Source: Nitrosarchaeum koreense MY1 (GTDB taxonomy: Archaea > Thermoproteota > Nitrososphaeria > Nitrososphaerales > Nitrosopumilaceae). Taken from it: a stretch of 64,000 bases of DNA. The notes under the pieces were generated by a model that saw nothing but the letters and a program-made list of their open reading frames with translations, searched no databases and had not been told where the DNA came from. The position numbers were made by a program, and so were the translations under genes. Where the stretch lies: assembly GCF_000220175.1 (NCBI RefSeq), contig NZ_AFPU01000001.1, forward strand, positions 1,337,512 through 1,401,511, given 5' to 3'. Below are positions 10,820 to 42,200 of the stretch, one piece after another. The stretch's first letter is position 1, and each line of letters starts with the position of its first letter.

Positions 10820-11523
10820 ACTATTTGTTTTGCCTCTTGAATTGATATTTTATTCTCATAAAGTGCTTTACCTAGAATTACACCAAAAGCATTTTGTTGT
10901 TTTACATTTTGAACGTCCTTAATATTTGAGATTCCACCGCTTGCAATTACATGTGCATTATTTAATTGACATGCTTGAGATAAAAATTCTAAATCAGGAC
11001 CTTCAAGTGTTCCATCTTTACTAATATTTGTTAGTAAAAATTCAGAGAACCCAATAGATAAAAATTCTTTCATAGCATCAATTAATTTTATTTTTGTTTG
11101 GTTTTGCCATCCATGTGTCACTATTTCACCATCAAGATGATCAACGGAAATCACAATTTTTTTAGAACCCAAATTTACCAATAATTTTTGCAGTATTGAT
11201 TTATCTTTGAAGGCCAATGTACCTAAAACAATTCTGTGACAAATTTTTGAGACGTCAGTAATAGTAGATTCATCTCGTAATCCGCCAGCAACTTGAATTG
11301 GAATTGAAATCTGATCAAGAATCTTCTTAATTATTGGCAGATTTGAACCAATACCAAGTGTTGCATCAAGGTCTACCAAATGAAGCATATCAGCTCCGTT
11401 TGCTTCCCATTTTTTTGCTACTTCTACAGGATTGTCACTGTATACGGTTTTCTGTTTAGGATCGCCTTTGTAGAGTCGTACTACTTGGCCATTCATTAGA
11501 TCAATTGCAGGAATAACTTTCAT
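10816..11523 (-). CDS. hisA: ProFAR isomerase (phosphoribosylformimino-AICAR-P isomerase)
   Basis: A TIM barrel of 235 residues paralogous to HisF, catalysing the Amadori rearrangement of ProFAR. The N-terminal acid is in IPAIDLMNGQVVRL and the second catalytic acid is in VISVDHLDG. The phosphate-binding strands VAGGLRD and ASGGISN are intact. It overlaps hisH and hisF by 4 bases on either side, implying translational coupling with both synthase subunits. Confidence 0.95.
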   Translation of the reverse strand: MKVIPAIDLMNGQVVRLYKGDPKQKTVYSDNPVEVAKKWEANGADMLHLVDLDATLGIGSNLPIIKKILDQISIPIQVAGGLRDESTITDVSKICHRIVLGTLAFKDKSILQKLLVNLGSKKIVISVDHLDGEIVTHGWQNQTKIKLIDAMKEFLSIGFSEFLLTNISKDGTLEGPDLEFLSQACQLNNAHVIASGGISNIKDVQNVKQQNAFGVILGKALYENKISIQEAKQIV

Positions 11524-12125
11524 TTTTTACACACATTTAAAAAATTTTGAATCATAATTTTTCCTACATTACCAGATTTTTCTGGATGAAACTGTGTCCC
11601 AAAAAAATTATCTTGTTCAATAACTGCAGGTACCTTAATTCCATAATCAGATTCTGCAGTAATAGCATCACAATTAATTGGGTTTACTCTATACGAGTGT
11701 ACAAAATAAACCCAAGATTCATTTTTTACTCCTTCAAGAATTTTTCCAGATTTTTTAATTTCCAAATTGTTCCATCCCATATGAGGAACTTTCATAGATT
11801 GTGGAAGTACTATTACATCTCCTTCAATTACACCTAATCCTTTCTCGTTTCCTTCTTCACTTTTTTCAAAAAACATTTCCATGCCAAGACAAATTCCTAA
11901 AACAGGAGTATTATCCTTGACATACTCATGAAAATTTGTTTTTGATTTAGATATGCTTTTTATTGCAGGATCAAAATTTCCTACCCCTGGAAGTAATAAT
12001 CCAGAGTAAATATTGGGCTTGTCAAAATTTGTGATAACATCTACTGTAGCTCCTGCTTTTTCAAGTGAATTTTTCAGACTGAAAATATTTCCAGCTCCGT
12101 AATCAAATATTGCTAGATTGACCAT
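11520..12125 (-). CDS. hisH: Imidazole glycerol phosphate synthase, glutaminase subunit
   Basis: A class I glutamine amidotransferase of 201 residues that feeds ammonia to HisF. The nucleophile is Cys79 in LGICLGMEM; the His/Glu pair is His180 and Glu182 in QFHPEKS. The oxyanion strand (LPGVGNF) is present. It starts directly after the hisB stop with no gap. Confidence 0.95.
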   Translation of the reverse strand: MVNLAIFDYGAGNIFSLKNSLEKAGATVDVITNFDKPNIYSGLLLPGVGNFDPAIKSISKSKTNFHEYVKDNTPVLGICLGMEMFFEKSEEGNEKGLGVIEGDVIVLPQSMKVPHMGWNNLEIKKSGKILEGVKNESWVYFVHSYRVNPINCDAITAESDYGIKVPAVIEQDNFFGTQFHPEKSGNVGKIMIQNFLNVCKK

Positions 12126-37847: not shown

Positions 37848-38041
37848 AAAAAGATCACGTTGAAATTCCAAAGCCATCAAGTAAATTCCAGAAAGTTAAT
37901 TGTAATGAATGCGGTGAATTACAAGTGGTATATTCTCATGCTTCACAAGTTGTTGTATGCAATTCTTGTGGGAACAACATTGCAGAACCAACAGGTTCTA
38001 AAGCAAAAATTAATGGTAAGATCTCAGGCAGTGCCGAGTAA
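37844..38041 (+). CDS. rps27e: Ribosomal protein S27e
   Basis: Small-subunit zinc protein of 65 residues with CNECGELQVVYSHA and VVVCNSCGN, the classic C4 zinc ribbon. The L44e-S27e pair is a conserved archaeal and eukaryotic gene couple. The last 18 bases overlap, on the opposite strand, the end of cobY. Confidence 0.97.
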   Translation: MKKDHVEIPKPSSKFQKVNCNECGELQVVYSHASQVVVCNSCGNNIAEPTGSKAKINGKISGSAE

Positions 38042-38608
38042 ATCATAATCTTGTTTTGTATTTAGATTAAAAGCAATTCTTTTGTCATCAATTATTATAA
38101 ATTTTTCAGATATATTTTCCATAGTTAAAATTTTTTCTGCATTTACTAATGAAATTCCAGAATAACAGCATTGTTGATTCTCAAACTCAAACCAATAATC
38201 AGATGAAAGATGTAAAGAATCAAGAAATTTTTTTGTAATAATGATTGTCGTCCAAACATTTTCTAAATTACATTGAGTTATAATTTTTTTAATAATATCA
38301 CCATCTAAAAAAGGTAAATCAGCTGATGCAATCAAAACAAAATCATTTAATGATTTAAGAACTAAATTAAGATCATTTACATAACCATCACCAGGAGTAT
38401 TAAAAAGTTCAATACTATTTTCTTCTAAAAATTTCTTTGTTTGTGGGGAGTTAGAACTAGTGATTGCCAATATTTTTGAAAAGCAATTAGAATCTCTTAA
38501 AGCATCAAGTACATGAAGTATTACAGGCTTTTTATATTTTAGAAGGAGTTTTTCTCCAGTTAAACTCATTCGACTTCCTTTGCCACCTGCCATCACAATG
38601 CCAATCAT
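38024..38608 (-). CDS. cobY: Adenosylcobinamide-phosphate guanylyltransferase
   Basis: Archaeal replacement for bacterial CobU. The 194 residues form a nucleotidyltransferase fold with the GTP loop MAGGKGSRMSLTGEKLLL, a second motif GDGYVNDLN and SADLPFLDGD. It activates adenosylcobinamide phosphate with GTP before CobS adds the lower ligand. It is last in the cobalamin operon and overlaps cobS by 4 bases. Confidence 0.9.
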   Translation of the reverse strand: MIGIVMAGGKGSRMSLTGEKLLLKYKKPVILHVLDALRDSNCFSKILAITSSNSPQTKKFLEENSIELFNTPGDGYVNDLNLVLKSLNDFVLIASADLPFLDGDIIKKIITQCNLENVWTTIIITKKFLDSLHLSSDYWFEFENQQCCYSGISLVNAEKILTMENISEKFIIIDDKRIAFNLNTKQDYDLLGTA

Positions 38609-39330
38609 ACTGAAATAAAAACCAAAAGAGATACTAGTCGTGTCAATTCATTAGTAGCCCCAAAAACATCACCGGTGATTCCTCCAAAGCTACGAGTACT
38701 CAAAATAACTAGGAACATAGTTAAAGTCACGCCTATTCCAAATACAAGTAAACCTATGTGGCTACCAAGCAAAATCATAGGGATTAAAGTAATAATGGCA
38801 GATAGTAATAACTTATTTTTATTTTTCATCATCTCGATAAAAGGAGAATTGGAACCTAGAGAGGCAGATTTTCCGATACTTGCCATTAAAACCATTGAAA
38901 ATTTTGCAATTATTTCACTTAGTAAAATTGCTAAAAATAATTGATATCCAGTAGATAATGATATCACAATTAACAATCCCACAATATGCAAAACTATTGT
39001 TACCATTCCTGCAGAACCAGTAGAGAGATCTTTCATTGCTGCAAGTTTTTGTTCTTTTGTACCTTTTACCATTAAACCATCAGCAAAATCTGCTAAACCG
39101 TCAGTATGATGTATACCTGTAAGTATTGCAAATGAAGTAACAACTAGTAAACTTACTATCAATGGATCTAAAAATAATGAGAGCCCAAATCCTATTGATC
39201 CAACAATTAAACCAATTACAATCCCTACAACTGGAAAAATATACATGTATTTTGCAATTGTTTCAAGATTTGAATTGCCAATTGGAATGATAGTCAAAAA
39301 TGAAAAAACAGAGCCAATTTCCTTAAGCAT
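38605..39330 (-). CDS. cobS: Adenosylcobinamide-GDP ribazoletransferase (cobalamin synthase)
   Basis: Membrane enzyme of 241 residues with six or so hydrophobic helices. The signature GIHHTDGLADFADGLMVKGT marks the active site between helices, and KDLSTGSAGM follows. It joins the lower-ligand riboside to activated cobinamide. It overlaps cbiB by 8 bases and cobY by 4. Confidence 0.94.
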   Translation of the reverse strand: MLKEIGSVFSFLTIIPIGNSNLETIAKYMYIFPVVGIVIGLIVGSIGFGLSLFLDPLIVSLLVVTSFAILTGIHHTDGLADFADGLMVKGTKEQKLAAMKDLSTGSAGMVTIVLHIVGLLIVISLSTGYQLFLAILLSEIIAKFSMVLMASIGKSASLGSNSPFIEMMKNKNKLLLSAIITLIPMILLGSHIGLLVFGIGVTLTMFLVILSTRSFGGITGDVFGATNELTRLVSLLVFISV

Positions 39331-40294
39331 GAATCCACCAACCTAAATATGATAAAAATAAAAGAAGTGGAACTACAACCATTCCACAAAATAATATCGA
39401 TGTAACTTTCATTATTAAAATTGCTGACTTGACATGATCTTTAGTAAATGAAATATTTCCATCACCTAATGAATAGTGATCCAGTTTTTCAAATTTTGTT
39501 CCTAATGCTCCTGCGATAGCTGCCATGGGATATCCGGCATTAGGACTTTGAGTTTTCTTTCCATCACGAATCATTATTTCAAAAGATTTTTTCCAATTAT
39601 TTCCTAGAATCATAGCACTGATTACCATGATAAATCCAGTAAGTCTTGATGGAATGTAATTCAAAATTGTATCACATTTTGCTCCAAACCACCCAATATT
39701 TCTGAAAATATCTGTTTTGTATCCAATCATAGAATCAGCGGTATTAACCACCCGATAAACAAAGGCACCAGGTAAACCAAAAAATGCAAAATAGAAAAGA
39801 GGTCCAGTTACACCATCAACCGTATTTTCACTAATACTTTCTAGTACGCCTGAATATACGTGATTTTTATCAAGATTTTTAGTATTTCGCTTTACGATCA
39901 TCGATAAATTGTCTCTAGCAGAAGAAATGTTGTCCTGCTCTAGTGCAGTAACAACTGCTATTGCATGTTTTTCCATTCCTTTTATTGCAATAGTTGATTT
40001 TAACAATACACTTCCTACGATTATTGAAATAATTATGTAGATGTAATCTATGGAAATTAAGTTAATTCCAATTTCCAAAAAAATAACTAATGATATAACT
40101 ATTCCAATAGAAATTAAAATGATCAAAATACCTCCAAGTTTTTCCAAAGTTTCTGATGAATTTTTTGTATGAGGGGTCAATTTTGCAATTAAGGATCCAA
40201 TCCAAGCAGTAGGGTGAAATTTATTTCTTGGATCACCAACTGTGAAATCTAATACGAGCGCAAAAAATACAATTAGAATTGATTCAATTATCAA
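39323..40294 (-). CDS. cbiB: Adenosylcobinamide-phosphate synthase, membrane protein
   Basis: The 323 residues form several transmembrane helices. The opening LDFTVGDPRNKFHPTAWIGSLI is diagnostic. It has ENTVDGVTGPLFYFAFFGLPGA and QSPNAGYPMAAIAGALG. It attaches (R)-1-amino-2-propanol phosphate, made by the neighbouring cobD product, to cobyric acid. The start overlaps the cobQ stop by 4 bases. Confidence 0.94.
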   Translation of the reverse strand: MIIESILIVFFALVLDFTVGDPRNKFHPTAWIGSLIAKLTPHTKNSSETLEKLGGILIILISIGIVISLVIFLEIGINLISIDYIYIIISIIVGSVLLKSTIAIKGMEKHAIAVVTALEQDNISSARDNLSMIVKRNTKNLDKNHVYSGVLESISENTVDGVTGPLFYFAFFGLPGAFVYRVVNTADSMIGYKTDIFRNIGWFGAKCDTILNYIPSRLTGFIMVISAMILGNNWKKSFEIMIRDGKKTQSPNAGYPMAAIAGALGTKFEKLDHYSLGDGNISFTKDHVKSAILIMKVTSILFCGMVVVPLLLFLSYLGWWIHA

Positions 40295-41130
40295 CTAATC
40301 ATCCTCTCTATTTCGGCAATATTCAAATTTGATTTTACTAATTTACTTAGTTTATCAATTTCATTTTCTATTTTAACAAGATTTTTTTTATTCCAAGTCA
40401 AATTCTTGGCATTAACATTCAAAGAATCTTCCTCAGGTAAATCTAAGTTAATCATAGGTATAGTACCTATTATTGGTCGATTTGTTATTTCTTTAATTTT
40501 TTTAAAACCTGGTTTTAGTATATTGATATCACCTCGAAATTTATTAATTACATAACCTTTGACTAACTTTTGATATTTTTTCTCTAAAAGAGCCATGGTA
40601 CCTACGATACTGGCAAATGAACCACCTCTATCAATATCCGAAATCAATAATACTGAAGAATTTGATATTTCTGCCATTTTCATATTTGCAATATCAAATT
40701 TTTGCAAATTAATTTCAGCAGGAGAACCAGCTCCTTCCAGAATAATCAAATCGTAATTTTTTTGAAGATGTTTAAATGATTTAGTAGCAATCGTTAGTCC
40801 TTTAGTTGTTACAAATTTTTTATAATATTCTGAAGCATGCATTTTTTTAAACAGTTTTCCATTGAGGTATACATCACTATAGTAATTTCCTTGAGGTTTC
40901 AATAAAATTGGATTTAGATCTGAGGTAATTTCACATCTAGCTGCTATTGCTTGGATTGCTTGTGCACGAGATATTTCAAAATCATTTGTTTTATACGCAT
41001 AATTTGACATATTTTGAGACTTGAAAGGTGCTACTGAAAATCCCTTATCTGAAAAAATTCTACATAGAGATGTAACAAGAGTAGTTTTTCCAGATCCAGA
41101 TGATGTACCCTGTATCATTAATGATTTCAT
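40291..41130 (-). CDS. cobQ: Cobyric acid synthase, synthetase domain only
   Basis: The family amidates four side chains of the corrin ring with ATP and glutamine. The N-terminal dethiobiotin-synthetase-like domain is complete: P-loop GTSSGSGKTTL, PFKSQNMSNYAY, LEGAGSPAEINL, DIDRGGSFA and INKFRGDI. The usual enzyme is about 480-510 residues; this one stops at 279, in a short helical tail, without any glutaminase domain (no nucleophile-elbow cysteine, no catalytic His). The stop overlaps the cbiB start by 4 bases, so the end is genuine. It may use free ammonia or a separate glutaminase. Confidence 0.85.
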   Translation of the reverse strand: MKSLMIQGTSSGSGKTTLVTSLCRIFSDKGFSVAPFKSQNMSNYAYKTNDFEISRAQAIQAIAARCEITSDLNPILLKPQGNYYSDVYLNGKLFKKMHASEYYKKFVTTKGLTIATKSFKHLQKNYDLIILEGAGSPAEINLQKFDIANMKMAEISNSSVLLISDIDRGGSFASIVGTMALLEKKYQKLVKGYVINKFRGDINILKPGFKKIKEITNRPIIGTIPMINLDLPEEDSLNVNAKNLTWNKKNLVKIENEIDKLSKLVKSNLNIAEIERMIS

Positions 41131-42200
41131 AATCTCTCCAAAGCATTGATTAATTTTTGATTTTCTTGTCTTGTCTTTACAGCAATTCGGATATAATTAT
41201 TATTTAATCCCCGAATTGTTTTACAATCACGAACTAAAATTTTTTTTTCAAGTAGTTTTTTTTGTAATACGTTTGATTTTATTTTTGTTTTTATTAAAAT
41301 AAAATTTGTAGAGGTATCAATACATTGAAAATTTTTAAGTTTAGAAATGCTATTTATGAGATATATAGATTCTTTTTTGATTAGTTTTTTAACTTTGTCT
41401 AAATAAAATCTATCCGAAAGAGCAACAGATGCTGCTTGTTGTGCCAATCCAGAAATATTCCAAGGAATGTTAATTTTATTTAAAACTATAGCCATTTGTT
41501 TTGAACCTATTCCATAACCAATTCTTAATCCAGCTAATGCAAATGATTTTGTCAAAGATCTTAAAATAAATAAATTGTTATATTTTCTAATTAGATTAAT
41601 AATGGATTCATCATAATCTGGCACTAATTCAATAAAACATTCATCTACAAACACTAAAGTTTTGTGTTTATTTGCTAATATGATTATTTTTTGTAATGTT
41701 TTTTTTGAGAGTAAATTTCCAGTGGGATTATTTGGATTGCAGATGAAGATGCATCCATTATTTGGAATTTTAGAAATAAATTCATCAGTATTTTTTTCTA
41801 GATTCATTGTTTTAAAAAATGTAATTTTTGCCCCACATAGTTTTGCTGCAGATTCATATTCACCAAATGTTGGAATCGGAATTAAAACAGGTGTTTTATT
41901 GGATAGAAAAGTTCTACAGAAATTATAGATTATTTCTGTAGCCCCATTTCCTACAACAATTTGAGAAGATGGTATTTTGGTATAATGTTCTAGATTTTTT
42001 CTAAGTTGGCTAGAATCTGAATCAGGATAGATTTGTATTGAATCTATCTGATTTTTTATTGTTTTACGAACAATAGAAGAAATTCCAAGAGGGCTAATAT
42101 TTGAGCTAAAATCCACAATATCTGAATTAGGATTATTTATTGAAAATGGGCCCCCATGATGAATTCGTTTATGTTCAGATATGTAGGGATTAATTCTCAT
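41127..42200 (-). CDS. cobD: Threonine-phosphate decarboxylase (cobalamin aminopropanol arm)
   Basis: PLP enzyme of the histidinol-phosphate aminotransferase fold, 357 residues. The N-terminus HKRIHHGGPFSI and DFSSNISPLG is the family's own opening, which separates it from hisC at 13711. FICNPNNPTGNLL and the PLP lysine in LRSLTKSFALAGLRIGYG are clear. It makes aminopropanol phosphate for CbiB. It heads the cobalamin operon, with a TATA box 25 bases before the ATG. Confidence 0.88.
   Translation of the reverse strand: MRINPYISEHKRIHHGGPFSINNPNSDIVDFSSNISPLGISSIVRKTIKNQIDSIQIYPDSDSSQLRKNLEHYTKIPSSQIVVGNGATEIIYNFCRTFLSNKTPVLIPIPTFGEYESAAKLCGAKITFFKTMNLEKNTDEFISKIPNNGCIFICNPNNPTGNLLSKKTLQKIIILANKHKTLVFVDECFIELVPDYDESIINLIRKYNNLFILRSLTKSFALAGLRIGYGIGSKQMAIVLNKINIPWNISGLAQQAASVALSDRFYLDKVKKLIKKESIYLINSISKLKNFQCIDTSTNFILIKTKIKSNVLQKKLLEKKILVRDCKTIRGLNNNYIRIAVKTRQENQKLINALERL

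Follow-up and report, generated by a model that had tools for sequence, protein, structure and literature searches.

The closest described system to the protein studied here is cobyric acid synthase, CobQ/CbiP (TIGR00313, NF001989). The likeness covers an orthologous synthetase, the cob cluster, the C-terminal tail, the P-loop and the motifs, whereas full-length CobQ/CbiP carries a glutaminase with a catalytic Cys and His (108 of 155 aligned proteins), which the short CobQ lacks. In vitro, ammonia can also serve CobQ/CbiP as a substrate, although the Km is poor. CobB shares the two-domain plan and the pathway with CobQ, but CobB keeps its glutaminase in the ammonia-oxidizing archaea (AOA). In the lipid II amidotransferase MurT/GatD, the amidoligase and a CobQ-like glutaminase are on separate chains, which is a precedent for splitting; however, MurT is a Mur ligase homologue, and the short CobQ has no GATase_3 partner in its genome. 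Dethiobiotin synthetase (1dbs, 1dts) is the closest solved fold to the predicted model of the short CobQ, and Galperin and Grishin are said to have placed it in the same P-loop amidoligase superfamily in 2000. It uses CO2, not ammonia, and has no glutaminase. The short NadE, an ammonia-dependent NAD synthetase, works with free ammonia and no glutaminase, but its fold and substrate are unrelated to those of CobQ; a NadE of matching size was found in the same genomes as the short CobQ. Archaeal ammonia oxidizers have been described as major marine cobalamin producers (PMC4303638, PMC6908642). Our literature search, with most subscription journals outside its reach, found no description of a glutaminase-less CobQ in AOA. 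The short CobQ is a variant of a known enzyme and not a new kind of system.

The short CobQ and its gene cluster

The window is a stretch of 64,000 nucleotides from Nitrosarchaeum koreense MY1, the genome of which is one contig of 1,607,695 bases (99.68% complete). The short cobQ is on the minus strand and is read from 41130 to 40291; the preliminary description gave no strand. It is the second gene of a tight minus-strand cluster running from 42200 to 38024 in the order cobC/hisC-like, cobQ, cbiB, cobS and cobY-like (Table 1). The first gene belongs to the L-threonine-phosphate decarboxylase / histidinol-phosphate transaminase family, and its stop overlaps the cobQ start. The cobQ TGA (40293-40291) overlaps the TTG start of cbiB (40294-40292), as had been described when the next gene was said to begin inside the cobQ stop codon. 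The order cobC-cobQ-cbiB-cobS was found in 36 of 36 synteny loci (L205-L231, L233-L241), and no extra gene was found inside the AOA cob cluster in these loci. AmoA-negative relatives with full-length CobQ share the order (L229, and L230 with a wider gap).

Table 1. Features of the cob cluster in the window
Feature	Position	Strand	Evidence
CobC/HisC-like PLP enzyme, upstream	41127..42200	-	TIGR01140 287 bits, TIGR01141 283 bits
Short CobQ, glutaminase-less cobyric acid synthase	40291..41130	-	279 aa, ATG start; ORF and translation
Amidoligase (synthetase) domain, residues 1-245	40396..41130	-	CbiA/AAA_26; P-loop GTSSGSGKT at residues 8-16
C-terminal helical tail, residues 248-278	40297..40389	-	Homologous to post-glutaminase tail of full-length CobQ
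CbiB, adenosylcobinamide-phosphate synthase	39323..40294	-	NF002281 322 bits, TIGR00380 274 bits
CobS	38605..39330	-	TIGR00317 168 bits
CobY-like nucleotidyltransferase	38024..38608	-	TIGR00454 88 bits, NF045495 78 bits, both under cut-off

Residues 2-247 of the protein matched positions 1-245 of the 480 positions of NF001989 (NCBIfam cobyric acid synthase) with 338 bits, over the cut-off of 273, and the match to the older model TIGR00313 covered positions 1-251 with 299 bits, slightly under the cut-off of 310. The CobB models scored at most 37 bits, so the protein is CobQ rather than CobB by profile score. The N-terminal CobQ-type amidoligase domain is present with its P-loop and EGAGSPAEIN motif. 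The Pfam search found the CbiA/AAA_26 nucleotide-binding domain and no GATase_3, and the C-terminal class-I glutaminase (GATase_3) with catalytic Cys and His was absent from the protein by Pfam, NCBIfam, genome search and alignment. The statement that the synthetase half is intact and the glutaminase half missing was confirmed by the NF001989 match, which stops at position 245 of 480, and by the lack of GATase_3. The AlphaFold model of the short CobQ was a compact and confident fold (mean pLDDT 92.3, pTM 0.92), for which Foldseek gave dethiobiotin synthetases as the best solved matches. By the cob cluster, the clade shared with CobQ and the profile score, the window cobQ is an orthologue of CobQ/CbiP.

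The short CobQ is under strong purifying selection. Compared with eight relatives in the genus, the dN/dS of the window cobQ was 0.09-0.14 for the synthetase and 0.03-0.27 for the short tail. In the synthetase, 61 positions were at least 95% conserved in 72 non-AOA CobQs, and 53 of these were at least 90% kept in 63 AOA CobQs; in the control, which compared 57 rows of the bacterial scan with 15 archaeal non-AOA proteins, 57 of 61 were kept. These synthetase comparisons left out families f19 and f22 as well as bacterial rows that were fused or cut by a contig end. No AOA-specific fixed replacement was found in the synthetase among residues conserved in at least 90% of non-AOA proteins and kept in at most 15% of AOA proteins. 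At looser thresholds (at least 75% and at most 10%, respectively), four positions appeared, namely 43 (L to N/S), 54 (G to S/A), 86 (Q to others) and 171 (V to S/C).

Distribution of the short form and decay of the glutaminase

We used a genus set of 18 genomes, a phylum sample of 299 and an order sample of 300, the last of which was searched for TIGR00313 and archaeal AmoA. In the genus, 16 of 18 genomes had a strong CobQ match, in 14 of them the short frame was intact, and in two (G001, G003) it was split by a frameshift; the two genomes without a strong match were 84% and 77% complete. The split positions differed between G003 (L018/L023) and G001 (L019/L022), and the flanking cob genes looked intact. 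The split cobQ in these two genomes is either a sequencing error or a recent loss. In the phylum sample, 96 genomes matched, and the 65 within the order all had open frames of 273-329 aa. Outside the order, 29 of 31 matching genomes reached at least position 447 of the 480 profile positions, and the remaining two (G136, G160) were weak matches under the cut-off.

In the order sample, TIGR00313 matched 247 genomes, and the 23 over the cut-off comprised 16 full-length CobQs, one intermediate (G340) and six short ones. Matches beyond those listed scored below 289 bits and therefore cannot be complete full-length CobQ. Archaeal AmoA was found in 215 of the 300 genomes. Fourteen full-length CobQs (families f56, f57, f58, f61 and f62) came from genomes without an AmoA match, and AmoA was present with the other two (G311 and G322, family f54) and with the intermediate G340. 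Among the matches listed from the 300 order genomes, short or decayed CobQ was confined to families with AmoA-carrying members. When CobQ lengths were compared across other AOA, a check that had been suggested for this locus, the short form proved common to three large families, throughout which it was found in the genomes examined; it was also seen in named records of Nitrosocaldus schleperae (L096) and Nitrosopumilus (L097, L098, L100, L103, L104). These results support that CobQ glutaminase loss goes with ammonia oxidation, and because the AOA are one clade, this link counts as one origin and one event.

We aligned 155 CobQ proteins, including 43 AOA rows and leaving out the frameshifted pieces L018, L019, L022 and L023. 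The 108 full-length CobQs with both catalytic residues came from bacteria, methanogens, other Thermoproteota and all 14 AmoA-negative order members. Forty rows were short, namely 39 from AOA and the bacterial L168, which was cut at a contig end; the aligned L130 and L136 were also CobQs cut by contig ends. In the three f54 rows, the Cys was retained, the His was replaced by Tyr and the YEIHMG motif was lost; two of these rows are distinct, as L079 and L095 look identical. In G340 (L080), the Cys was replaced by Asp and the His region was deleted. In agreement with this series, PF07685 scored 162-203 bits on the CobQ glutaminase of the six AmoA-negative genomes tested, 78 and 76 bits in two f54 (Nitrosomirales) genomes and 45 bits in G340, and no match to a CobQ glutaminase was found in the remaining genomes of the 34 order genomes searched. 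Thus, AOA keep surviving intermediates, from the change of His to Tyr, through the change of Cys to Asp with partial deletion, to full excision, and they are a rare record of a two-domain amidotransferase losing a domain. One bacterial protein, the CobQ of a Tissierellia MAG (L143), had Gly at the catalytic Cys position and a retained His, which is possibly an independent loss of glutaminase activity.

The CobQ-like glutaminase GatD of S. aureus is reported to use a Cys94/His189 pair, and mutants in key residues wholly lacked glutaminase activity (PMC5871853). Because GatD with the same dyad loses activity on mutation, the glutaminase domain of the Nitrosomirales (f54) CobQ would be inactive by analogy. 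Relaxed selection on this domain was not detectable in the one pair compared, L078/L079, in which the identity gap between synthetase and glutaminase was 24 points (194 non-AOA CobQ control pairs, mean 19, SD 8.5), which counts against the ammonia-fed reading discussed below. In the pair L078/L080, the gap of 29.1 points was larger than in all 2218 control pairs (maximum 28.7).

The short proteins keep the end of the full-length enzyme. A tail HMM was built from 109 non-AOA full-length CobQ tails, leaving out the contig-cut L130, L136 and L168. With this HMM, the highest of 975 shuffles reached 8.6 bits, a score exceeded by 37 of 39 short AOA C-termini, and all 39 exceeded the 95th percentile of the shuffles, although L089 and L153 were weak (3.2 and 2.6 bits, respectively). 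The tail helices were at 248-268 and 271-278 in the short model and at 467-485 and 488-494 in the full-length f54 model (mean pLDDT 91.5). Since the post-glutaminase tail is retained in the short CobQ, the glutaminase was cut from the middle of the protein. The tails of family f3 vary, and long low-complexity inserts were seen at the excision junction in L205, L206, L208 and L215.

We take family f1 to be Nitrosopumilaceae (with N. maritimus and Cenarchaeum) and f3 to be Nitrososphaeraceae (with N. gargensis), and f2 presumably includes a Nitrosocaldus genome. G340 is in family f2, yet in a different genus from Nitrosocaldus. As for the identity of INTERMEDIATES, L095 (Thaumarchaeota archaeon SAT137) matches the L079 of G322 in CobQ length, motifs and tail. 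SAT137 has been assigned to Ca. Nitrosomirales, sister to Ca. Nitrosocaldales (PMC10811736). In the CobQ tree, from which the mis-trimmed fusion protein L101 and some other rows were left out, the AOA formed one clade (100/99.6; 37 rows, f54 and G340 among them), and the AOA CobQs nested with the CobQ of order relatives. G340 joined f2 weakly (65/77), and a single short-form clade was not rejected (AU p = 0.37). Judging from the taxonomy of the genomes that carry each form, complete excision may have occurred at least two times, in Nitrosocaldus after the split from G340 and on one or more branches towards f3 and f1; this count rests on genome taxonomy because the gene tree does not reject one short-form clade.

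Ammonia source of the short CobQ

We consider it fairly probable, from the sequences compared, that the short CobQ is an ammonia-fed enzyme whose glutaminase was inactivated first and excised later, and AOA CobQ now probably takes ammonia from another source than its own glutaminase. Using ATP, the amidoligase half would phosphorylate four carboxylates (b, d, e and g) of adenosylcobyrinic acid a,c-diamide, and cytosolic ammonia, not glutamine-channelled ammonia, would attack the phosphorylated carboxylates. In the AOA ancestor or in very early AOA, the fused glutaminase would have lost its catalytic residues, the His first and the Cys later if the two intermediates mirror the order, and the dead domain, which lay between the synthetase core and the C-terminal helix, would later have been excised at least two times. 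At the level of sequence, the domain absence, the intermediates, the tail retention, the synteny and the purifying selection are established. We infer that cobyric acid is made in vivo by the short CobQ with free ammonia as the donor; free ammonia is the simplest donor and fits the earlier death of the glutaminase.

The genome G099, which we take to be N. maritimus SCM1, carries a short CobQ (L090). Studies have reported that the N. maritimus exometabolome contains cobalamin (PMC8281238), cobalamin production is stated for all known thaumarchaeotal cultures (PMC6908642), and the amides installed by CobQ are described as carried by cobalamin (PMC7242693). Because AOA cultures are reported to make cobalamin, which bears the amides of CobQ, the short enzyme presumably works.

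The feature picked out by the preliminary description is real, and the context that it guessed was right; it had suggested that free ammonia in an ammonia oxidizer makes the glutaminase dispensable. The loss is real and tracks the AmoA families, but this explanation is too simple, since CobB was found in 27 of the 28 AOA genomes searched and retained both catalytic residues, Cys and His, in every one of them. A general ammonia surplus is therefore insufficient to explain the loss by itself, and from the supply of ammonia alone one could not tell which enzyme would lose its glutaminase. NadE was an open frame of 265-287 aa in the eight genomes tested (8/8), AmoA-positive or not. This size is typical of ammonia-dependent NadE, so direct ammonia use by CobQ would not be unique in these cells. 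Should CobQ use free ammonia, this defined enzymatic step would link B12 production to the supply of ammonia. We offer only tentatively, and with more doubt than belief, the wider view that the free ammonium pool of AOA directly feeds the final corrin amidations (four for each vitamin molecule), that B12 output is tied to the supply of the energy substrate and that the glutaminase was lost stepwise after ammonia oxidation was acquired.

The main rival to an ammonia-fed CobQ is a glutaminase acting in trans, with the short CobQ complexed with the glutaminase domain of CobB or with an AOA-wide orphan glutaminase and the ammonia tunnelled, as GatD feeds MurT; we regard this as rather unlikely. 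In the genome, GATase_3 (PF07685) gave three matches at E <= 0.001, one of which was a full-length CobB of 450 aa, and the other two were presumably PdxT-like and PurQ-like proteins. At E <= 0.01, a HisH-sized protein of the window was added. This 201 aa glutaminase (11520-12125, minus strand), which we take to be HisH-like, is a weak GATase_3 match among closely spaced same-strand genes. CobB was the sole match over 100 bits in the genome, in which no lone CobQ-type (GATase_3) glutaminase was found, and the GATase_3 matches over 100 bits in 34 order genomes were only CobB or intact CobQ. The separate CobQ-type subunit that the preliminary description had raised as an alternative was thus not found by the PF07685 genome search. 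The catalytic residues kept in CobB suit a trans supply, and so does the split MurT/GatD with its CobQ-like glutaminase (PMC6085368, PMC5871853), but the distance between CobB and cobQ is about 248 kb, taking the single contig as circular.

The orphan class-I glutaminase (about 180-190 aa; G000:C1:10174-10713, L256:5175-5717) is GuaA-like, far under the family cut-offs, and has conserved Cys, His and Glu motifs. It was present in each of the first 10 AOA genomes inspected and in nearly every AOA genome of the order sample of 300, which counts for a trans role. On the other side, the orphan adjoins a UPF0182 gene and not a cob gene, and the cob cluster has no inserted gene. The orphan is rare in AmoA-negative order members, where it was found in G317, G327 and G386, which have no CobQ match, and in G324, which has an intact full-length CobQ. 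Its occurrence beside an intact CobQ, or with none, lends no support to a CobQ-specific role and weakens the orphan as an obligate CobQ partner. A second lone glutaminase, of 227 aa and PRK07053-like, was seen at L257:933-1616, about 430 bases from a gene that, by its motifs, is presumably glutamate-dehydrogenase-like.

A role of the short CobQ outside de novo cobyric acid synthesis, either amidating another substrate or persisting as a vestige beside corrinoid salvage, is very unlikely. The reading frame split in two of 18 genus genomes would fit a vestige, but the dN/dS of about 0.1 and the conserved synthetase residues and cob cluster speak for a working enzyme. The genes around CobB, which we take to be corrinoid-adenosyltransferase-like, CbiC-like and CbiX-like, also argue against this explanation, as does the cobalamin production reported for AOA cultures (PMC8281238, PMC6908642). 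A frameshift or a sequencing or assembly break in a normal CobQ, which the preliminary description listed as a thing to exclude and held not to be the case, is rejected with hardly any doubt, because the short form is shared by most AOA, its length being the same across three AOA families, both in independent genomes and in named records (65 of 65 matching order genomes in the phylum sample with open frames), cbiB overlaps the cobQ stop, and the CobQ glutaminase half is nowhere else in the genome.

The short length of AOA CobQ also bears on how the gene is counted. A metagenome survey has used TIGR00313 as one of its markers for cobalamin genes (PMC4303638). Owing to this short length, only 23 of the 247 matching order genomes exceeded the curated cut-off of this model, and surveys applying that cut-off can miss AOA CobQ.
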